A stretch of 64,000 nucleotides of DNA from NCBI GenBank assembly GCA_035308905.1, contig DATGFS010000042.1:67093-131092 (forward strand), read 5' to 3'. The stretch comes from a bacterium. GTDB lineage: Bacteria > Sysuimicrobiota > Sysuimicrobiia > Sysuimicrobiales > Segetimicrobiaceae. A model generated the notes under the pieces. That model was not told the origin of the DNA. It did not search any database and saw only the letters and a program-made list of their open reading frames with translations. The position numbers were made by a program, and so were the translations under genes. Below, piece by piece: positions 30,783 through 64,000 of this stretch; position 1 is the first letter of the stretch; every line of letters begins with the position of its first letter.

Positions 30783-31148
30783 GTGGCCAAGTTTCTCATC
30801 GTGAGCTCGGTTGGTTCCCAGGATCCCACGCGGGCAAGCCTTCCGTTCCATATCGCCGTGAACGGCGCGGTTCCCGCCGGGCACGAGTGCGGGATTGCGT
30901 TCACCGGTGATGCGACCGACCTCCTGAAGCGAGACGTCGCCGGAGCCGTCCGCGGCGTCGGCGTGCCGGCGCTGGCCGATCTTCTCGCAGGATGCGCCCA
31001 AAAGGGCGTTCGGTTCTACGTGTGAAAAGGGTGTGCCGAGGCCCGTGGGGTCTCGCAGCAGCACCTCGAAGGATATCCAGCGCAGTTCATCACGCCGCCG
31101 GACCTTGCGCGGTTGACGGTCGAGGCGGATCGGGTGCTGACGTTCTGA
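30783..31148 (+). CDS. DsrE-family selenoprotein with Sec-x-x-Cys motif (in-frame UGA at 31023-31025)
   Basis: The product is 121 aa if the in-frame TGA at 31023-31025 is read as selenocysteine. Start GTG 30783 has AGGGGG six bases upstream. The N-terminal half has DsrE traits: KFLIVSS, FHIAVNGAVPAGHECGIAF and a GVGVPALADLL block. The frame continues after the TGA as KGCAEARGVSQQHLEGYP for 40 more codons of normal composition to a TGA at 31146-31148, and DsrE proteins normally have Cys or another redox residue at the interrupted site. The result is a U81-K-G-C84 redox motif. A SECIS-like hairpin follows. It is probably a small cytosolic redox protein; partner unknown. It lies 35 bases before an SBP gene. 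Confidence 0.8.
31034..31060 (+). promoter_or_regulatory. Bacterial SECIS-like hairpin of the DsrE selenoprotein
   Basis: CGAGGCCC (31037-31044) pairs with GGGTCTCG (31048-31055; one G-U pair) around a 3-base loop GTG. Outside it TGC (31034-31036) pairs with GCA (31058-31060) across a two-base CA bulge. The loop begins 19 bases after the UGA. This fits the known bacterial SECIS rules (small G-containing loop 16-37 bases downstream) and mirrors the grdB hairpin at 61629. Confidence 0.75.
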
Positions 31149-41333: not shown

Positions 41334-42383
41334 TCAGCGCTCCCGGATGACGGCGGGCGCCTCCGGCAGCACCAGGCTCACCGTGTCGCCGATCCGGTGC
41401 GCCGGCTCGCCGGGCTGCTGCACGCGGAGCCGCACGTCCTTCACGCTGATGACGTAGTCGGTGATGGATCCGAGGTAGGCAGCCTGCTGGACCGCGCCGG
41501 TGAGACAGTTCACGCCGCCCGTGCCGATGCGGATGTCCTCCGGGCGGAAGGACAGCGTCACCGCGTCGCCGCTGGCCAGCCGGTCGGCGCACGCCATCTG
41601 GAGCGGCCCCATCGGAGTCTCGGCGACGTACCGGCCGCCCTCCGCGCCGGCGACCGTGGCCTCGATCAGGTTGGCGATGCCGAGGAACTCCGCGGTCACC
41701 CGGGCCCGCGGCCGCCGGTACACGTCCTGCGGCGCGCCGACCTCGACGACCCGGCCCCGGTCCATCACGACGATCCGGTCGGAGAGGACGAGCGCCTCGG
41801 CCTGGTCGTGGGTCACGTAGACGGTGGTGATCCGGAGCCGCTGCTGCAGGGTCCGCAGCTCGAGCCGCAGGCGCTCCCGCAGCTTCGCGTCGAGGTTGCT
41901 GAGCGGCTCGTCGAAGAGGAGGACCTTGGGGCGCGTCACGACCGCGCGGGCGACCGCGACGCGCTGCTGCTGGCCGCCCGACAGCGCCCGCGGGTACCGG
42001 TCCCCGAGCCCGCCCAGCTCCACCATCGCCAGGGCGTCGGCGACGCGCGTCCGCCGCTCCTCCGCGGGCACGCGCCGCATCCGCAGGCCGAAGCCGACGT
42101 TCTCGGCGACGGTCATGTGCGGGAACAGCGCGTACGATTGAAACACCATCGCGGTCTCGCGCCGGTGCGCCGGCAGATGGTGCACGGGCCGGCCGTCGAT
42201 GAGGACCTCGCCGGCGTCGGGGTCGAGCAGGCCGGCGATGATGCGCAGCGTCGTCGTCTTCCCGCACCCCGAGGGACCCAGGATGGTGAGAAACTCTCCA
42301 TCCCGGGCCTCGAGATACACGTCCCGCACGGCGGCCGTGGGCCCGTAGGCCTTGGTTACGCCGCGCAGTTCGACCTGTGCCAC
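41334..42383 (-). CDS. ABC transporter ATP-binding protein (PotA/FbpC/UgpC-like)
   Basis: The product is 349 aa. ATPase motifs are complete: GPSGCGKT (about 36-43), FQSYALFPHMTV, LSGGQQQR, LLFDEPLSNLD and VTHDQAEA. The C-terminal TOBE region includes LSFRPEDIRIG. It starts one base after the stop of the SBP gene. It is the motor of the 39586-43626 importer and closely resembles the 34102 ATPase, so the two may have arisen by duplication. Confidence 0.9.
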   Translation of the reverse strand: MAQVELRGVTKAYGPTAAVRDVYLEARDGEFLTILGPSGCGKTTTLRIIAGLLDPDAGEVLIDGRPVHHLPAHRRETAMVFQSYALFPHMTVAENVGFGLRMRRVPAEERRTRVADALAMVELGGLGDRYPRALSGGQQQRVAVARAVVTRPKVLLFDEPLSNLDAKLRERLRLELRTLQQRLRITTVYVTHDQAEALVLSDRIVVMDRGRVVEVGAPQDVYRRPRARVTAEFLGIANLIEATVAGAEGGRYVAETPMGPLQMACADRLASGDAVTLSFRPEDIRIGTGGVNCLTGAVQQAAYLGSITDYVISVKDVRLRVQQPGEPAHRIGDTVSLVLPEAPAVIRER

Positions 42384-54750: not shown

Positions 54751-56331
54751 ATGGCGAACGGAGGCACACGCACCGAAGCCGATCCGCGCGGCCTGACCCG
54801 GCGGCGGCTGCTCGCGCTCACCGCGGGGGCCGCGGCGGGCGCGGCGCTGCCGGCCGGCGGCCTGTTCGACCGCCGCGTGCTGGCGGCCGCGGAGAAGCGC
54901 GGCGGAACCCTGACCGTCGGCGTGAACACCGATCTCGTGTCGCTCGATCCCAACGACATCGTGTTCGCCAACGTGCCGATGTTCTTCCAGGTCTACAACT
55001 ACTTGGTCAAGTACACCACGACGCTGCAGGCCCGTCCGGACCTCGCCGAGTTCTGGGACGCGGCGAAGGACGGCATGAGCGTCGTGTTCCGCCTCCGCGA
55101 CGGGGTGCGGACGCATTCCGGCGGCACCTTCGGCGCCGACGCGCTGATCGCCAATTTCCGCCGCACCAAAGACAAGGCCACCGGCGGGGGACTGTTCAGC
55201 CGCCTCGGCGACTGGGAAGCCGCCGACCGGCTCGACGCGAGAACGGTGCGGTTCCGGTTCGCCCATCCGCATCCCGACTACCTGGCCCAGATCGCCCGGT
55301 GGGGCATGGTGGACCCGGCGTCGTTCGCGACCGTGCGGAACAAGGGCGGCGGGACCGGACCCTTCCGCGTGCAGGAGTGGGTGCCGGGCGACCACGTCAC
55401 CTTCGCCCGCTTCGACGGCTACTGGCAGCAGGGGCTGCCGCTGCTCGACCGCGTGGTCTGCCGCGTGTTTTCGGATCCGCAGGCGCTCGAGAACGCCTTC
55501 CAGGCCGGGACGGTCGACGTCGCGCACACGATCGTCAACAAGGACGTCGCGCGCCTCAGGCAGGCCGGGTTCCAGATCGCGCCCGCGCCGGTGCCGAACG
55601 AGTACTACGTGCTCGTCATCAACACGCGCAAGCCGCCGCTCGACAACATCAAGGTCCGTCAGGCGATCCAGCTCCTGGTGGACCGCGCTACGGTGGTGCG
55701 CACGGTGCTCGGCGGCGTCGGCCGGCCGGTCGCGCAGATGGTGACGCCCGCCTCGCCGGGCTACGATCCGAAGCTGGACGCCGAGTACGGGTACAATCCG
55801 GCGAAGGCGAAGCAGATCCTCGCGTCCGCGGGCATCGGCCGCGGCGTGCGGCTGAACTTCCTCACGTCTACGAGCACCCCGGAGCTGCCGCAGATCGCGC
55901 AGATCATCCAGGCGGATCTCCGGCAGGCCGGCCTCGACGCGAACATCACGATCCACGAGCCGGCCCAGTACTTTCCGCCCTACTTCGCCGGCAACTTCGA
56001 TCTCAGCCTCTCGTTCCTCACGCTGGCGACCATCGATCCGACGGACTTCACCATCAGTTCGGCGTTCCGCACGGACGGGACGAACCCGGCGTGGATCCAG
56101 ACCGGGCCGCCGCGCGAATACGTCGACGGCCTGCTCGGCCTCAACACGACCTTCGACATGCGGGAGCGGTGGACGCGGCTGCGCGCGGTGATCCGCTACA
56201 TCCTGGATCAGGCGTGGGCCGTGCCGGTGGCGCTGCGGCTCCCCACCTACGGCCTCGCGAAGCCGGTGGCCGGGTTCGACGTCGATCCGCAGATGCTGAT
56301 CCAGCTGAAGGGGACCTGGCTGAACCGCTAG
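54751..56331 (+). CDS. ABC transporter substrate-binding protein, family 5, Tat-exported
   Basis: The product is 526 aa. A twin-arginine signal (LTRRRLLALTAGAAAG, about residues 16-31) precedes a mature protein with TVGVNTDLVSLDPNDIVF, FRLRDGVRTHSGGTF near residue 115 and RQAIQLLVDRATV near 310. It is the fourth peptide-type SBP in the window. It begins an operon with a creatininase-family amidohydrolase placed between it and the two permease genes, an arrangement that hints at an amide- or lactam-containing ligand. Confidence 0.85.
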   Translation: MANGGTRTEADPRGLTRRRLLALTAGAAAGAALPAGGLFDRRVLAAAEKRGGTLTVGVNTDLVSLDPNDIVFANVPMFFQVYNYLVKYTTTLQARPDLAEFWDAAKDGMSVVFRLRDGVRTHSGGTFGADALIANFRRTKDKATGGGLFSRLGDWEAADRLDARTVRFRFAHPHPDYLAQIARWGMVDPASFATVRNKGGGTGPFRVQEWVPGDHVTFARFDGYWQQGLPLLDRVVCRVFSDPQALENAFQAGTVDVAHTIVNKDVARLRQAGFQIAPAPVPNEYYVLVINTRKPPLDNIKVRQAIQLLVDRATVVRTVLGGVGRPVAQMVTPASPGYDPKLDAEYGYNPAKAKQILASAGIGRGVRLNFLTSTSTPELPQIAQIIQADLRQAGLDANITIHEPAQYFPPYFAGNFDLSLSFLTLATIDPTDFTISSAFRTDGTNPAWIQTGPPREYVDGLLGLNTTFDMRERWTRLRAVIRYILDQAWAVPVALRLPTYGLAKPVAGFDVDPQMLIQLKGTWLNR

Positions 56332-56341
56332 GAGGGCGGCG

Positions 56342-57166
56342 ATGCCGGCTGGTCCCGTCAGGGGGGAGACGGACGTGGAGATCCGCTACGAACTGATGCG
56401 GCCGCAGGACATCGTCGCCGCGCGCCGGCGGGCGCCGATCGCCTACCTGCCGATCGGCCCGATGGAGTGGCACGGGCCGCACATGGCCGTCGGTATGGAC
56501 ATGCTGCACGCGCACACGATGGCGCTCGAGGCGGCGCGCAAGGCCGGCGGGGTCGTCCTGCCGCCGCTGCCGCTCGGCACCGAGACCTATACGGACGCGG
56601 AGCGCCTCCGGCACCGCGGCTTCAGCGGGACCGAGCGCATCTACGGGATGGACTATCCGGGCTTCGCGCTGCCGAGCCTGTACATCGAGGAGAGCGCGTT
56701 CGCGCTGATCGTGCGCGAGGTGGTCCGCGGGCTGAAGCGCCAGGAGTTCAAGGTGATCGCGCTCGTGAACGGCCACGGCGCCCAGAACCACCGGAACACG
56801 CTCACGCGCGTGGCGACGGAAACGACGGAGCCGGGCCGCGCGACCGTCCTGCTCGCGGGGTACCTCTACGACGGTCGGTACCGCGAGCACGCGGCGATCG
56901 GCGAGACGTCGTACCTGCTCGCGTACCATCCCGAGGCCATCGACCTCGCGGCGCTGCCCGCGCTGCCGGAGCCGCTCGGGTACCGGGACTTCGGCATCCT
57001 CGATCGCCAGACCGTCGTCGGCGAGCCCACCCCGGACTTTACCGTGGCCGCGGAACACGATCCGCGCCGGGCCACCGCCGAACGGGGCCGCGACGACGTG
57101 GCCTACGAGTCCGATCAGATCGCCCGGAGGGTCAGCGAGGCGCTCGCCGCGCTCGAGCGGACGTAG
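56342..57166 (+). CDS. Creatininase-family amidohydrolase
   Basis: The product is 274 aa. The metal-site signatures are PIGPMEWHGPHMAVGMDMLHA (Glu and His ligands near residues 41-43, Asp near 51; the family usually reads EQHG, here EWHG) and LVNGHGAQN (about residues 140-148), plus Glu in AAIGETSYLLA. Family members hydrolyse creatinine, cyclic amides and formamide-type bonds. Its place between an SBP and its permeases, ten bases after the SBP gene, suggests it opens a ring or amide in the transported compound. Confidence 0.85.
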   Translation: MPAGPVRGETDVEIRYELMRPQDIVAARRRAPIAYLPIGPMEWHGPHMAVGMDMLHAHTMALEAARKAGGVVLPPLPLGTETYTDAERLRHRGFSGTERIYGMDYPGFALPSLYIEESAFALIVREVVRGLKRQEFKVIALVNGHGAQNHRNTLTRVATETTEPGRATVLLAGYLYDGRYREHAAIGETSYLLAYHPEAIDLAALPALPEPLGYRDFGILDRQTVVGEPTPDFTVAAEHDPRRATAERGRDDVAYESDQIARRVSEALAALERT

Positions 57167-57175
57167 GCGGGGGCC

Positions 57176-58135
57176 ATGGCGGCCGGCGGGCTGGGACGCT
57201 ACCTGGCGCGGCGGGGCATCGAGGCCGCGTTCACCCTGTTTCTCGCGTCCGTGCTGGTCTTTGCCATGGTGGCCGCGCTGCCGGGGGATCCGGCGCAGGT
57301 CATTCTCGGGGACCGCGGCACCCCCGACCAGCTGCGCGCCCTGCGGGCGTATCTCGGCCTGGACCGGCCGCTCCCGCTGCAGTACGGGGGGTGGATCGTC
57401 CGGATCGCGCACGGCGATCTCGGGCATTCGCTCATCAACGGCGCGCCGGTGGCCGGGCTCGTCGGGCGCGCCCTGCCGCTGACGCTGCAGCTCTCGCTGT
57501 GGGCGTTCGCCGTGGTCGTGCTGATCGCGTTTCCCGCGGGCATGTTCGCGGCCACGCGGCCGCGGTCGCCGCTCGCGGCCGCGCTGCGCTGGTACCACGG
57601 ATGGGCCCTGGCCGTGCCGGTGTTCTGGCTCGGGGCGATCCTGTCGTGGTACTTCGGCGTAGTCCTGAAATGGCTGCCGCCCTCGGGGTTCGTCGGCCTC
57701 GCGGAGAGCCCGTCCGGGTGGGCGCGCAGCCTCGTGCTGCCGGGCGTCACGCTCGGCCTCGGCGTCGGCTCGGTGATGGCGCGCTTCGTGGAGGCGTCGC
57801 TCGGCGACGTGCTGTCGAACGACTACGTGCGCACGGCGCGCGCGAAGGGCCTGCCGGGACGTGCGGTGGTGTGGCGGCACGCGCTCGGCAACGCGCTCAT
57901 TCCGATCGTCACCGTGCTCGGCATCCAGGCCGGGTTCTTCATCGGCGGGGCCGTGATCACGGAGGCCGTGTTTGCGATTCCGGGGCTCGGCAGCATGCTG
58001 TGGCGCTCGATCCTGACGCGCGACTATCTGGTGACGCAGTCGGTGATCCTCGTCGGCATCGCGGCGTTCGTCGTGATCAATCTCTGCACTGACGCGCTCT
58101 ACGGCCTGCTCGATCCGCGGGTGCGGTATCAATGA
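57176..58135 (+). CDS. Peptide-type ABC transporter permease (DppB-like)
   Basis: The product is 319 aa. Features are an N-terminal RYLARRGIEAAFTLF helix, YLGLDRPLPLQYGGWI, a DYVRTARAKGL coupling loop with RHALGNALIPIVT (about residues 215-245), and CTDALYGLLDPRVRYQ at the end. About six membrane helices. It begins 10 bases after the creatininase-family gene and pairs with the DppC-like protein encoded next. Confidence 0.9.
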   Translation: MAAGGLGRYLARRGIEAAFTLFLASVLVFAMVAALPGDPAQVILGDRGTPDQLRALRAYLGLDRPLPLQYGGWIVRIAHGDLGHSLINGAPVAGLVGRALPLTLQLSLWAFAVVVLIAFPAGMFAATRPRSPLAAALRWYHGWALAVPVFWLGAILSWYFGVVLKWLPPSGFVGLAESPSGWARSLVLPGVTLGLGVGSVMARFVEASLGDVLSNDYVRTARAKGLPGRAVVWRHALGNALIPIVTVLGIQAGFFIGGAVITEAVFAIPGLGSMLWRSILTRDYLVTQSVILVGIAAFVVINLCTDALYGLLDPRVRYQ

Positions 58136-58160
58136 CGGGCGCCGCGTTCCCGGCGCGCCG

Positions 58161-59027
58161 ATGACGGTGTCGGCGAGGGCGCTCGCGGGCAATCACGCCC
58201 CTCTCCGCGCCCGGGCGGCGCGGCGCGCGCGGGTCCCGGACGCGGGCGCCGTCTTCCTGATCGCGATCGCGGCCGCGGCCGCCGCCGCTCCGCTCCTCGC
58301 GCGGTACGGGCCGACGGACATGAGCAAAGAGACAGTGCTCGCGCTGCCGTCGTGGAGCCACCTCGCGGGCACGGACCAGTTCGGGCGGGACATCCTCAGC
58401 CGTCTCTTGTACGGCGCCCGGATCGCGCTCGCGATCGGCGTCGGGTCGACCGCGGTCGCCGCGGTGTGCGGGGTGCCGCTCGGCCTCTGGACGGGCTTCA
58501 AAGGCGGCGCCGTGGACGCCGCCGCGATGCGGACCGTGGATACGCTCCTCGCGATCCCCCCGGTGCTGCTCGCGATGGCGCTCGTGGCCGCGGTGGGGCC
58601 GGGGTCGGTGAACGCCGGCGTGGCGATCGCGATCGTCGGCCTGCCGCAGTTCGCGCGGATCGCCCGGGCCGGCGTGCTGACGCACCGCGAGATGGAGTAC
58701 GTGGAGGCGTCGGTCGCCGCGGGCGCGCGCGACGCCCGGATCGTCTTTCGCACCATCCTACCGAACGTGCTCTCGCCGGTGCTGGTCCAGATCCCCATCG
58801 GCGTGTCCCGCGCCATCCTGCTCGAGGCGAGCCTGAGCTTTCTCGGCCTCGGGACCCAGCCGCCGCAGCCCTCCTGGGGACTGATGATCAGCGAGAGCCG
58901 CGAGTACATGTACGCCGCGCCGTGGTACGGCATCTTCCCGGGCCTCCTGATCGCGTTGACCGTGCTCGCGTTGAACCACGCGGCGGACCGGGTACGGGCC
59001 CGCTGGAGCCCTGATCGGGCGCGCTAA
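58161..59027 (+). CDS. Peptide-type ABC transporter permease (DppC-like)
   Basis: The product is 288 aa. It has a 35-residue cytoplasmic tail, a first helix rich in Ala, then LAGTDQFGRDILSRLLYG (about residues 69-86), the coupling loop SVAAGARDARIV with RTILPNV, and ASLSFLGLGTQPPQPSWG. It completes the 54751-59027 importer; again no ATPase gene follows. The next feature downstream is the operator-promoter of the grd-like operon. Confidence 0.9.
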   Translation: MTVSARALAGNHAPLRARAARRARVPDAGAVFLIAIAAAAAAAPLLARYGPTDMSKETVLALPSWSHLAGTDQFGRDILSRLLYGARIALAIGVGSTAVAAVCGVPLGLWTGFKGGAVDAAAMRTVDTLLAIPPVLLAMALVAAVGPGSVNAGVAIAIVGLPQFARIARAGVLTHREMEYVEASVAAGARDARIVFRTILPNVLSPVLVQIPIGVSRAILLEASLSFLGLGTQPPQPSWGLMISESREYMYAAPWYGIFPGLLIALTVLALNHAADRVRARWSPDRAR

Positions 59028-59049
59028 CGCGGCGCGGGGGTGCGGATTT

Positions 59050-59067
59050 TGCCAAATCGGTTTGACT
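59050..59067. promoter_or_regulatory. Second LacI-type operator, upstream of the FAD/grd-like operon
   Basis: TGCCAAATCGGTTTGACT matches the reverse complement of the 48261 operator at 16 of 18 positions. It overlaps the -35 box of the promoter beside it and lies about 100 bases before the ATG at 59169. Confidence 0.7.
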
Positions 59068-59091
59068 ACCGGCGCCGCCGTGTCCCATAAT
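59062..59091 (+). promoter_or_regulatory. Promoter of the FAD/grd-like operon
   Basis: TTGACT (59062-59067) and CATAAT (59086-59091) are separated by 18 bases. Transcription would start near 59098, giving a leader of about 70 bases. The -35 box is inside the operator, the classic geometry for repression. Confidence 0.65.
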
Positions 59092-59168
59092 TGCGGCGAT
59101 GCGGCGCGGCGGGGCGCTCGGGCCGCCGGGCCCGCGTCCGGACTGCCGTGCCTGCGGGGGGACGCCGG

Positions 59169-60563
59169 ATGAGATTCTTTGGGCATGCCGACGTGATCGT
59201 CGTCGGGGGCGGGACCGCCGGCATCGTCGCGGCGATCGCCAGCGCGCGAAGCGGCGCGCCGACGCTGCTCGTGGAGCAGTCGAGCGGTCTCGGCGGGACG
59301 AGTACCAGGGGTCTCATGAACTGCTTCGTGACCTTTCACGACGCCGGAGGCCGCCAGGCCGTTCGCGGCATCGCCCAGGAGATCGTGGACCGGCTGGTCC
59401 GGGCGGGCGGCTCGGCCGGGCACACCGCGGATACGATGGGTGAATGCGTGACGCGCGTCCTCTTCGACCCGTTCGTGCTCGGCAACGTGCTGTTCGAGAT
59501 GGCGGGGGAGGCGGGCGTCGAGCTGCTGCTGCACAGCAGCGTCGTCGACGTGCTGATGGACGGCGACCGGCTGAAGGGGCTGGTGCTGCACAACAAGGGC
59601 GGGCTGCAAGTTGCGACGTGCGGTGTGTGCATCGACGCGAGCGGCGACGGGGACGTGGCGGCGGCCGCCGGCGCGCCGTTCGAGAAGGCGGCGCGCGGAG
59701 AGCTGCAGCCGATCACGCTGATGTACCGCCTCGGCGGCGTGGACATCGACCGGTGGGCCGATTTCGTCCGCGGGCGGCCGCGGGAGTTCGAGATGACGCG
59801 CGTGCCCGACGATCCGCGCGCGGAAGGGCTCGGGATCATGAGCCTGACGTATTTTCAGCCGTTCCGGGACGCGGTGCGGGCCGGGGAGCTGCCCCGCGGA
59901 ATCTCCGGCGAGCAGGTGTGGCTCTTGTGCGGACGCGAGGAGGCGCGGCAGGGCGTCGTGACGGTCAACGGCACGCGGGTGGAAGGCCTCGACGGGACGA
60001 ACCCGCGCGAGCTGACCCGCGCCGAGGCGGACGCCCGGCGCCAGGCCGCCGGGCTCAGCGCGTGGCTCCGCGGCCGCATGCCGGGGTTCGAGCAGTGCTA
60101 CATCTACCAGACCGCGCAGCAGCTCGGCGTGCGCGAGACCCGGCGCATCGTCGGCGACTACATGCTGACTGAAGACGACGTCTTGTCGGCGCGGGCGTTC
60201 GAGGACGCGATCGCGAAAGGATCCACCCCCATCGACATCCACGGCGGCGCCGACGCCGGCGGCGAGAACTACTGGATCAAGACCACCGACTTGGGCATTA
60301 TGGCGTACGATATCCCGTACCGGTGCCTCGTGCCGCGCAACGTGGAGCAGCTGCTCGTCGCGGGCCGGTGCATCTCGACCACCCATAAGGCCCACGGCGC
60401 GACGCGCATGCAGCCGGTGTGCATGGCGACCGGGCAGGCCGCCGGCACCGCGGCGGCGCTCGCCGCCGCGCGCGCGGTGCCGCCGCGCGCGATCGACGTC
60501 CGCCACCTGCAGGACGCGTTGATCCAGGCCGGCCAGGTGATTCGCGAAGACCAAATGGTGTGA
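59169..60563 (+). CDS. FAD-dependent oxidoreductase of the FAD_oxidored family, in the grd-like operon
   Basis: The product is 464 aa from ATG 59169 (GGGGGG about 9 bases upstream). The dinucleotide site is VIVVGGGTAGIVAAIASARSG (about residues 9-29 with LLVEQ after it). Later blocks are IDASGDGDVAAAAG, VTVNGTRVEGLDGTN, LGVRETRRIVGDYMLTEDD and LLVAGRCISTTHKAHGATRMQP. It is the third paralogue of this family in the window. It is encoded ten bases before the grdB-like gene under a promoter carrying a LacI operator, so it could pass electrons to or from the reductase or prepare its substrate. Confidence 0.85.
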   Translation: MRFFGHADVIVVGGGTAGIVAAIASARSGAPTLLVEQSSGLGGTSTRGLMNCFVTFHDAGGRQAVRGIAQEIVDRLVRAGGSAGHTADTMGECVTRVLFDPFVLGNVLFEMAGEAGVELLLHSSVVDVLMDGDRLKGLVLHNKGGLQVATCGVCIDASGDGDVAAAAGAPFEKAARGELQPITLMYRLGGVDIDRWADFVRGRPREFEMTRVPDDPRAEGLGIMSLTYFQPFRDAVRAGELPRGISGEQVWLLCGREEARQGVVTVNGTRVEGLDGTNPRELTRAEADARRQAAGLSAWLRGRMPGFEQCYIYQTAQQLGVRETRRIVGDYMLTEDDVLSARAFEDAIAKGSTPIDIHGGADAGGENYWIKTTDLGIMAYDIPYRCLVPRNVEQLLVAGRCISTTHKAHGATRMQPVCMATGQAAGTAAALAAARAVPPRAIDVRHLQDALIQAGQVIREDQMV

Positions 60564-60572
60564 GGCGATAGG

Positions 60573-61907
60573 ATGGACGCTCACGGGTTGCGGGTGGTTC
60601 ATTACATCAACCAGTTCTTCGCGGGGATCGGCGGCGAAGAGCGCGCCGACACGCCGCCGGCCGTCAAGGACGGCCCGGTCGGTCCCGGACGGGCGATCCA
60701 GGCCGCCCTCGGTTCGCACGGCGCCGTGGCCTCGAGTATGGTCTGCGGCGACAGCTACTTCAACGAGCGGATCGACGCGGCCGGCGAGGCGGTGCGCGCG
60801 TGGCTCGGCGCGCAGCGGCCCGACGTGGTGATCGCGGGCCCGGCGTTCGCCGCGGGCCGGTATGGGCGCGCCTGCGTCGAGGTGTGCCGCATCGCCGCGG
60901 ATCTCGGGATTCCCGCCGTCACCGGCATGCACCCCGAGAATCCCGGGCTGTTGATGTACCGGGAGGCGTACGTCGTGCCGACCGCCGGCAACGCGGCGGG
61001 CATGGCCGCGGCGCTCGGCGCGATCGTGCCGCTCGCCCGCAAGCTCGGCGCGGGGCTCCCGGTCGGACCGGCGGAGGACGAGGGCTACCTGCCGCGCGGC
61101 ATCCGGCGGCCCGGAGCGCGGGCGCTGCCCGGGGCGCGGCGGGCCGTCGATATGCTCGTCGCCAAGCTCGGCGGGACGCCGTTTCGCACCGAGCTCCCGG
61201 TCGAAGGCTACGAAGCCGTGGCGCCCGCGCCGCCCGTCGCGGACATGCCCCACGCGACGATCGCGGTGGTGACGACCGGCGCGATCGTGCCGAAGGGCAA
61301 TCCGGACCACCTCAAGCGGTGCAGCGAGACGCGGTGGCAGCGCTACGAGCTGGAGGGGCGGACGCGCCTCGAGCCGGACGAGTTCGAGTGCGTCCACGGC
61401 GGCTTCTACAACGTCCCGGCGTCGGAGAACCCGAACGTCGTGCTGCCGCTGGACGCGCTGCGGGAGCTCGAGCGCCGCGGCCTCTTCGCGCGGCTCGCCG
61501 ACTTCTACTGCACCACGACCGGCAACGACCAGCGGTTCGCGGACTGCGTGCGCAACGGCAAGGAGATCGCGGAGCTGCTCTGGCAGGAGCGGATCGACGG
61601 CGTGCTGCTCGTCGCGACCTGAGGGTCGTGCAATCGTTGCGGCGCAACGATCAGCAAAGAGATCGAGCGGCGGCGGATCCCGGTGGCCGTGATCAGCGCG
61701 CTGCCGCCGCTGGCGATGCAGGCCGGCGCGAACCGCGTCGTGCAGGGGGTCAAGATCGAGCACGTCTGCGGGGACCCGGCGCTGCCGGCGGAGGAGGACG
61801 GGGAGGTGCGCCGGCGCCTCGTGGAGCGCGGGCTGCGGGCGCTCGGGACCGCGGTGGAGCGTCCCACGCTCTTCGAAGGGGACGGCACGATGGTGACGGC
61901 GCGGTGA
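60573..61907 (+). CDS. grdB: GrdB-like selenoprotein (glycine/sarcosine/betaine reductase component B), in-frame UGA at 61620-61622
   Basis: The product is 444 aa if the TGA at 61620-61622 is read as selenocysteine; without it the protein would end at 349. Start ATG has GAGG eight bases upstream. GrdB features run across the UGA: VHYINQFFAGIGGEERAD, IAGPAFAAGRYG, VTGMHPENPG, GYLPRGIRR, IVPKGNPDH, then VLLVATUGSCNRCGATISKEIER, matching my memory of the TSTUGTCTRCG Sec site. U350 with Cys353 and Cys356 forms the redox centre that attacks the C-N bond of the substrate. The frame continues to 61907 with normal family sequence. It overlaps grdE by 4 bases. Component B specificity (glycine, sarcosine, betaine or another amine) is not decided here. 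Confidence 0.9.
61629..61656 (+). promoter_or_regulatory. Bacterial SECIS-like hairpin of grdB
   Basis: ATCGTTGC (61633-61640) pairs perfectly with GCAACGAT (61644-61651) around loop GGC. TGC (61629-61631) pairs with GCA (61654-61656) across an internal A/CA loop. The loop starts 18 bases after the UGA, as expected for a SelB-recognised element inside the coding sequence. Confidence 0.8.
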
Positions 61908-63253
61908 CGGCGTCGATGAACCTGACCGTGGGGACGTTTCCCGTCCGCGAGGTGGCCTTCGGCGCGCCGGCGGGATGGCGGGACGGGCGCCTCGTCGTCG
62001 ACGCGGACCGCGTCGCGGCGCTCGTGCGCGAGGACCGCCGCATCCGGCGCGTCGCGGTGGATCTCGTTCAGCCGGGAGAGGCGGCGCGGATCGTGCAGGT
62101 GCGCGACGTGATCGAGCCGCGGGTCAAGGTGGAGGGGCCCGGCCACACCTACCCCGGCATCTGCGGCCACGCACCGGACACCGTGGGCGACGGCGTCACG
62201 CACCGCTACGCCGGCCTCGGCGTGCTGATCGCGTCCGAGGCGCTGCCCCACATCCGGCGCACGGTCAGCGCGGCCACCGACAGCCTGATCGACATGTCCG
62301 GGCCCGGCGCCGTCACCGTGTACAGCACGCTGCGCTACGTCGCCCTGACCATCGAGACGCTGCCGGACCTCGATCTCACCTCGTGGAACGACGCGCTGCG
62401 CGGGGCCGCCCACCGCGTCGCGGCCGACCTCGCGGAGCTCGTGCGCGCCCAGACGCCGCCGGAACGGCGCGCGTACCTCCTGGCGCCGCCCGCCGCGGGA
62501 CGCCCGCGGGTCGTGCACGTGCACACGCTCAACGCCTCGATGGTCCCGGGGATCGGCACCGGCATCTATGGGTACACGCAGCACGCCCTGCCGGTGCTGC
62601 TGCACCCGAACGAGATCCTCGACGGGGCGATCGCCGGCGACGCCGTCGTCACCTATCCCGGGAAGTGCACCTGGCTGCACGTGAACAACCCGGCGCTCGG
62701 CGCGCTGTACGAGCGCGACGGGACGGATCTCGCCTGGCTCGGCTCGATCATCTCGCGCACGCGGTGGGGCGGGCTCGACGAGAAGCGCCTCAGCGCGTAC
62801 CAGACCGCCAAACTGGCCGCGATGCTCGGCGCCGACGGCGCGCTCGTCACCTGGAACCACGGCGGCAACGATCTCCTCGAAGTGATGATGACGATTCAAA
62901 GCCTCGAGCGCGCGGGCATCAAGACGACGTTCCTCACGATCGAGTCGGACATCAAGGTGGTGCGGATGACGCCGGCGCTCGCGGAGACCGGCACCTCGGA
63001 ACCGCCGCTCTTGTTCAGCGTGCCGGAGGCCGACGCGATCGTCAGTACCGGGACCCTCGCCCCCGCCGACCCGCTGCCGGCGATGCCGCGGGTGATCGGC
63101 GGGCGGGACGTCGTGTTCGATCAGGAGCGCCCCGACGTCCGCACCCCCGCGGCCGGGCCGCTGGATCTCGAGGCGGTGTCGGGCGCATACTCGCCGATCT
63201 TCGGGCACTTCGACAACTACGGTCTGGGGCGCCAGAGCTACCTTGACTACTGA
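61904..63253 (+). CDS. grdE: GrdE-like reductase component B alpha/beta subunit, processing cysteine not conserved
   Basis: The product is about 449 aa from GTG 61904 (4-base overlap with grdB); ATG 61916 is possible. GrdE landmarks: VRDVIEPRVKVEGPG (about residues 67-80), DTVGDGVTHRYAG, LIDMSGPGA, LHPNEILDGAI, HVNNPALGALYERDG and TTFLTIESD. In classical GrdE the precursor is cut before a Cys in a GNCVSAC segment to make a pyruvoyl group. Here the aligned segment reads GDAVVT (Asp246-Ala247) and the nearest Cys is 255, eight residues away. Either the subunit is not processed, or cleavage occurs elsewhere. This comparison is from memory. Confidence 0.85.
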   Translation: MTASMNLTVGTFPVREVAFGAPAGWRDGRLVVDADRVAALVREDRRIRRVAVDLVQPGEAARIVQVRDVIEPRVKVEGPGHTYPGICGHAPDTVGDGVTHRYAGLGVLIASEALPHIRRTVSAATDSLIDMSGPGAVTVYSTLRYVALTIETLPDLDLTSWNDALRGAAHRVAADLAELVRAQTPPERRAYLLAPPAAGRPRVVHVHTLNASMVPGIGTGIYGYTQHALPVLLHPNEILDGAIAGDAVVTYPGKCTWLHVNNPALGALYERDGTDLAWLGSIISRTRWGGLDEKRLSAYQTAKLAAMLGADGALVTWNHGGNDLLEVMMTIQSLERAGIKTTFLTIESDIKVVRMTPALAETGTSEPPLLFSVPEADAIVSTGTLAPADPLPAMPRVIGGRDVVFDQERPDVRTPAAGPLDLEAVSGAYSPIFGHFDNYGLGRQSYLDY

Positions 63254-64000
63254 GGGCGCGAGGCCGGTCTCGAACGGCGTCCGGCCCGTCGTCCGCGCGG
63301 CGCGGTTTGCGATGGCCCATACCCCCGCGCTGATCGCGGCCGGCTCGAAGCCGCGGCGGGAACTCGCCGTGCGCGGGGCGGCGGAGCGCGAAGCCCTTCT
63401 CAGGCACCTGCGGTCGTTCGAGGACGCCGTGCGGTATCCGCCGCACCAGGTGATGCTCGGCGCGCTCCCGCCCGAGGCGCTGTGGGGGATTCCGAGGCCG
63501 TGGCATGACCGGCCGGTGGACGGAGCGCGGGCGGAGGGCCCCGGCGGCCGGATGCTCGACGAGATGGAGTTCTACGCGTGGCTGGCTCGGGCGGATGCGG
63601 CGAGCCTGCTCTATGTCACCCCGGAGTTCGCGCGGACGCTGCAGCACTTCGGCGCGCCCGAGCGGATCCAGACGATGACAGCCCCCGGCCTGGCGCGGGC
63701 GGTGGAGCGCGGCGCCGAGCCCCTGCGGCGCACGCCCGACGAGACGGTCGGTGCCGTCGTCCCCGCGCACGAGCAGGACGAGTCGCTCGCGGCGCCGGTG
63801 CTGCTGGAGAACCTCGCGGCCAAGGTCACCGGCGGGCTCGCTCTGCGGGCGCTCCTCGACGCGGTCGACTCGGACACTCCCGTCGACTACCTGATTGGAT
63901 GCGGCGAGGAAGCGGTAGGCGATCGGTATCAGCGCGGGGGCGGCAACCTGGCAAAAGCGATGGGAGAGCTCGCCGGCGTCCGGACCGCCGGGGCGTCGGA
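63243..64000 (+). CDS. grdC: GrdC-like reductase component C subunit beta (3' end outside window)
   Basis: An open frame runs from TTG 63243 (11-base overlap with grdE) to the window edge, 252 codons. It matches GrdC as I remember it: RAARFAMAHTPALI near the start, LRSFEDAVRYPPHQVMLGAL, GIPRPWHDRPV, EMEFYAWL, GAVVPAHEQDESLAAPVLLENLAAKVTGGLAL and DYLIGCGEEAVGDRYQRGGGNLAKAMGELAGV. GrdC is a thiolase/FabH-like subunit that with GrdD turns the Se-carboxymethyl intermediate into acetyl phosphate. Its active-site region lies beyond the edge. Its presence shows the operon is not just an isolated grdB/E pair. Confidence 0.85.
   Translation, partial: MTTEGARPVSNGVRPVVRAARFAMAHTPALIAAGSKPRRELAVRGAAEREALLRHLRSFEDAVRYPPHQVMLGALPPEALWGIPRPWHDRPVDGARAEGPGGRMLDEMEFYAWLARADAASLLYVTPEFARTLQHFGAPERIQTMTAPGLARAVERGAEPLRRTPDETVGAVVPAHEQDESLAAPVLLENLAAKVTGGLALRALLDAVDSDTPVDYLIGCGEEAVGDRYQRGGGNLAKAMGELAGVRTAGAS

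Follow-up and report, generated by a model that had tools for sequence, protein, structure and literature searches.

Two in-frame UGA codons lie 30 kb apart in the 64,000-nucleotide stretch of DNA analyzed here (the window), and each is followed by a hairpin with an 8-bp stem, a three-base loop with G first, a CA bulge, and an outer TGC/GCA pair. A preliminary description read this likeness as a lineage-specific SECIS model, conserved by covariation rather than by copying. Here, we ask whether both UGAs encode selenocysteine (Sec), and whether their hairpins share an architecture peculiar to this lineage or only the features common to bacterial SECIS (bSECIS) elements.

Two probable selenoprotein genes and the Sec machinery

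The genes concerned and the neighbors of the second one are as follows.

30783..31148, + strand: DsrE-like selenoprotein gene (GTG start, 121 aa, Sec81 in U-K-G-C), true stop TGA 31146-31148
31023..31025, + strand: very probable Sec-encoding UGA of the DsrE-like gene, UGA-aligned in 7 genomes of the family
59091..60563, + strand: FAD-dependent oxidoreductase gene, directly upstream of grdB (PF12831, E 1.4e-120)
60573..61907, + strand: GrdB-type reductase selenoprotein B gene (Sec350 in U-G-S-C-N-R-C), true stop TGA 61905-61907
61620..61622, + strand: very probable Sec-encoding UGA of the GrdB-type gene, UGA in all GrdB homologues aligned over the site
61916..63253, + strand: component B alpha-subunit gene of GrdE/GrdG type (PF09338, E 2.6e-76; NF040793, 178 bits)
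63243..64000, + strand, continuing past the window end: component C beta-subunit gene (NF040746, 506.6 bits, above cut-off)

The GrdB-type gene belongs to the GrdB family: it contains UxxCxxC and matched TIGR01918 at 446.2 bits (cut-off 65.45) and PF07355 with an E value of 3.5e-120. It shares the U-G-S-C-N-R-C motif and the UGA position with the GrdB/GrdF selenoprotein B of glycine, sarcosine, and betaine reductases, and its SECIS core, CGTTGC-GGN-GCAACG, is identical to that of clostridial GrdB. Its scores against the substrate-specific equivalogs GrdF, GrdB, and GrdH (451.8, 413.1, and 381.1) were below the respective cut-offs (800, 602.2, and 775); therefore, no substrate is assigned. Distant GrdB/PrdB-like proteins with 22-26% identity and a UGA in U-P-x-C-[NH] were seen in other genomes (loci L055, L056, and L057).

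The surrounding genes stand in an operon-like order: FAD oxidoreductase, GrdB, the GrdE/GrdG-type alpha subunit (the downstream partner of grdB), component C beta, and GrdA. The grdA gene lies directly past the window end (locus L212), carries its own in-frame UGA, and matched NF040748 at 177.5 bits, above the cut-off. Upstream in the grd operon (window 54751-64000 and beyond) are a creatininase-family gene and a peptide/nickel-type ABC transporter, and the genome holds three copies of grdB and two of grdA. Sysuimicrobiota is a soil phylum and a reported user of the reductive glycine pathway. The main text of its main genome paper mentions neither selenoproteins nor Grd (PMC11604079), and the operon suggests amino-acid or N-methyl amine reduction, a capacity undescribed for the phylum in that paper.

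The DsrE-like gene, read through its UGA, gives a DsrE/DsrF-like product. Its PF02635 match spans the UGA (E 4.6e-15; 56.3 bits against a cut-off of 22.7) and the Sec of UxxC aligns to Cys, which places the gene in the DsrE-like selenoprotein family (PF02635 with UxxC; PMC1088965, PMC13188914). It has the fold family, the UxxC motif, and a bSECIS behind the UGA in common with known members, but the members here are new, occur in Segetimicrobiaceae, and adjoin an ABC transporter gene set. Relatives with an in-frame UGA were 72-78% identical. The site is UGA in seven Segetimicrobiaceae genomes and Cys (TGC/TGT) in most of the more distant homologues, and these Cys-type genes had no comparable hairpin at spacing 19. 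A DsrE search in nine genomes of another phylum returned only two homologues, both without an internal stop.

The genome (4.0 Mb, 81 contigs) encodes SelA, SelB, SelD, and tRNA-Sec, the full set expected of an organism that uses bSECIS elements: selA (547 bits), selB (333 bits), and the tRNA-Sec gene are clustered on contig C33, and selD, itself with an in-frame UGA, is on contig C3. Because homology runs through each UGA, each UGA is conserved in relatives, and this machinery is present, both UGAs are very probably Sec codons, and the hairpins downstream are of SECIS type, as first proposed.

Across the genome, we counted at least nine probable Sec sites, namely three GrdB, two GrdA, two formate dehydrogenases (FDH), SelD, and DsrE. 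Six of the nine (DsrE, GrdB1, GrdB3, both FDH, and SelD) combine an 8-bp stem and a three-base loop that starts with G, the loop lying at spacing 33 in SelD; the GrdB2 stem is 7 bp long. By the same criteria, no clear bSECIS was found at the two GrdA sites (L165 and L171; TGA at 1621), so a simple bSECIS model fails to account for every Sec site here. In contrast, GrdA in genomes of family f6 (L160-L162) has an 8-bp stem, a GGA loop, and spacing 23. Both GrdA paralogues (L165 and L171) also show a strong hairpin approximately 165 nt behind the Sec codon (1788-1820; 17-21 bits with the covariance model R1 described below), which is probably a by-product of coding sequence. In most genomes of the order, the SelD gene (L284; relatives L271-L283) probably encodes a selenoprotein itself, and the SelD genes looked at show an 8-bp stem, a G-first three-base loop, and spacing 33.

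Hairpin geometry and the lineage-specific model

The two hairpins occupy the following positions.

31034..31060, + strand: SECIS hairpin of the DsrE-like gene (stem 31037-31044/31048-31055, loop 31045-31047)
61629..61656, + strand: SECIS hairpin of the GrdB-type gene (stem 61633-61640/61644-61651, loop 61641-61643)

The preliminary description had the geometry right: coordinates, stem lengths, loops, spacings, bulges, and outer pairs all match the window sequence. The DsrE hairpin has 8 bp (one G-U), a GTG loop starting after 19 nt from the UGA, a 3' CA bulge (31056-31057), and an outer TGC (31034-31036) paired with GCA (31058-31060); its fold energy is −23.1 kcal/mol over 42 nt. The GrdB hairpin has 8 bp, a GGC loop starting after 18 nt, CA at 61652-61653, and an outer TGC (61629-61631) paired with GCA (61654-61656), with −12.4 kcal/mol over 42 nt. 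In the latter, an unpaired A (61632), a detail missing from that account, faces the CA bulge, so that the outer pairs of the two hairpins are one position out of register.

Published bSECIS limits, whose prototype is the E. coli formate dehydrogenase elements, are a loop of 3-9 nt with G in the first two positions, a stem of 4-16 bp, and 16-37 nt from UGA to loop (PMC13188914); as an energy criterion, we used MFE <= −7.5 kcal/mol. Both hairpins fall within these values in loop G (GTG and GGC), stem (8 bp each), spacing (19 and 18 nt), and energy (−23.1 and −12.4 kcal/mol), and they resemble the consensus in the 3-nt G-first loop, the 8-bp stem, and the 18-19 nt spacing. What they add to the consensus, the outer TGC/GCA and the CA bulge, is not conserved and therefore lies outside the element. 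Since the core is inside every published limit and the GrdB core is common to other phyla, the architecture is not lineage-specific.

Could the SelB of Sysuimicrobiota nevertheless read a composite of CA bulge, outer TGC/GCA helix, and core? The composite is present in both window hairpins and is rare at random (10 of 127,880 positions, or approximately 0.1 expected after TGAs, a count that is only descriptive because the two examples themselves supplied its criteria), and the CA bulge with the three outer pairs occurred in 6 of the 14 distinct Sysuimicrobiota GrdB sequences against none of the 64 from elsewhere. However, these features are missing in the other 8 GrdB sequences of the phylum and in 6 of its 7 DsrE sequences, where pairing of the outer helix reaches only 43% of cells. 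They are also absent from the six additional Sec sites compared in this genome (GrdB2, GrdB3, two FDH, and two GrdA), and the register of the outer pairs differs between the two hairpins. The outer TGC of the GrdB hairpin encodes the Cys of UxxC and is found in nearly all members, and the outer GCA falls in Ser-Lys codons, which vary. A lineage-specific class is thus already largely refuted, and we regard it as very improbable.

The covariance-model scan that the preliminary description had proposed did not rescue the idea. We built a model (R1) from the lineage's GrdB and DsrE hairpins, based on a mixed alignment of loop-centered families (A5), as MAFFT could not align the two hairpins alone; pair counts from A5 were not taken as evidence of covariation because the hairpin itself set the register. 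In the genome, R1 gave three matches above 30 bits (GrdB1, DsrE, and GrdB3), and matches from 21 bits down were not behind Sec codons. With filters off, GrdB2 scored 24.3 bits, and the FDH and GrdA sites were at background or absent. Across 43 genomes from the order, every one of the 21 matches scoring at least 30.4 bits was a GrdB or DsrE Sec site known from protein searches. Of the weaker matches, 26 were inspected, and none had a UGA 18-20 nt ahead of it within an extended gene; these were ordinary hairpins. As R1 retrieves only GrdB and DsrE, it recognizes two gene families and not a SECIS class.

The CA bulge and TGC/GCA shared by the two hairpins are a local coincidence. A variant confined to part of Segetimicrobiaceae, in which the outer helix and two-base bulge stabilize the SECIS or are sensed by SelB, is just as improbable as the lineage-wide class; under it, the features may have arisen locally, as a refinement, in one DsrE gene and in the GrdB genes of some genera.

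Chance expectation and selection on the stems

In the window (70% GC), we compared TGAs with all positions; hairpin statistics for the genome draw on the window together with 92 kb of its other loci. A loose bSECIS definition (>=6 bp) was satisfied after 24% of TGAs and likewise at 24% of all positions; therefore, it has no discriminating power in DNA this GC-rich. Under stricter criteria (8-bp stem, 3-nt loop with G first, spacing 18 or 19), a hairpin followed 2 of the 1310 window TGAs, precisely the two discussed here, and occurred at 72 of 127,880 positions, which corresponds to approximately 0.7 expected after TGAs; these counts, too, are descriptive, as the criteria came from the same two hairpins. 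In the 92 kb, which were partly picked for holding Sec sites, 5 of 1773 TGAs satisfied the 8-bp, G-first criteria: three probable Sec codons (GrdB3 and both FDH) and two that are not such codons. No such hairpin followed the terminal UGAs of the two window genes, where the best stems had 5 and 7 bp and a different spacing. Other TGAs flanked on either side by coding-like frames (41336 and 25793 on the − strand, 60561 on the + strand) likewise had no 8-bp hairpin. Those at 41336 and 60561, considered as Sec candidates, look like ordinary gene junctions in the list of open reading frames. A scan of the window at Rfam gathering thresholds gave no match, but it is uninformative because RF00031 was likewise silent in every control genome.

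In 79 distinct GrdB sequences, other phyla included, core pairs 1-5 were paired in all 79 and pair 6 in 70, and CGTTGC-GGN-GCAACG was near-invariant in Clostridia, Synergistota, Chloroflexota, and Coprothermobacter. A GrdB paralogue of the same genome (L059) has A-T in place of T-A with pairing kept, and in another GrdB (L148) several pairs are altered together with pairing retained. The stem also uses codons that are rare in this genome (CGT, 2.7% of Arg; GCA, 1.2% of Ala), and its length exceeded a synonymous-codon null in which protein and codon usage were fixed (P = 0.001; P < 0.01 in 63 of the 79 GrdB sequences). In DsrE, for which seven Sec sequences were on hand, both sides of pairs 5 and 6 change in more distant members, with compensatory swaps in L070 (G-C to C-G and A-U to U-A); the single-sequence codon-null test was weak (P = 0.02-0.10). 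These compensatory changes inside each family indicate that the stems of both hairpins are maintained at the RNA level. The proposed conservation by covariation therefore stands within each family. It does not hold between the two genes, which are non-homologous and whose likeness is that of the bSECIS consensus.

A further, very improbable reading takes the hairpins for coding by-products at 70% GC, with the UGAs either recoded through some other element or acting as true stops before fragments. It can draw on the frequency of loose hairpins behind TGAs and on a DsrE stem only marginally above the codon null, but it is opposed by the UGAs and downstream homology kept across species, the full set of Sec machinery genes, the compensated rare-codon stem of GrdB, and the paired swaps of DsrE.

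Two ordinary bSECIS elements and their implications

We conclude that this Segetimicrobiaceae bacterium (Sysuimicrobiota, CSP1-3) very probably has two genuine but ordinary bSECIS elements in the window, one in each of two unrelated selenoprotein genes. By homology with the E. coli system, SelB carrying Sec-tRNA(Sec) would bind the small hairpin, in which the exposed G of the loop would sit 18-19 nt behind the UGA, and would deliver selenocysteine at that UGA in place of release factor 2. The core shared by the two hairpins would then reflect the general demands of bacterial SelB. From homology, we infer such SelB binding and Sec insertion at both UGAs.

The unsupported idea of a lineage-specific model is a warning against building a scanner from two examples. 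The GrdB stem, in turn, offers a clear case of coding sequence that retains rare codons for RNA structure. Finally, the analysis supports two selenoprotein genes that gene callers would truncate, and both are new members of known selenoprotein families in a little-studied phylum.
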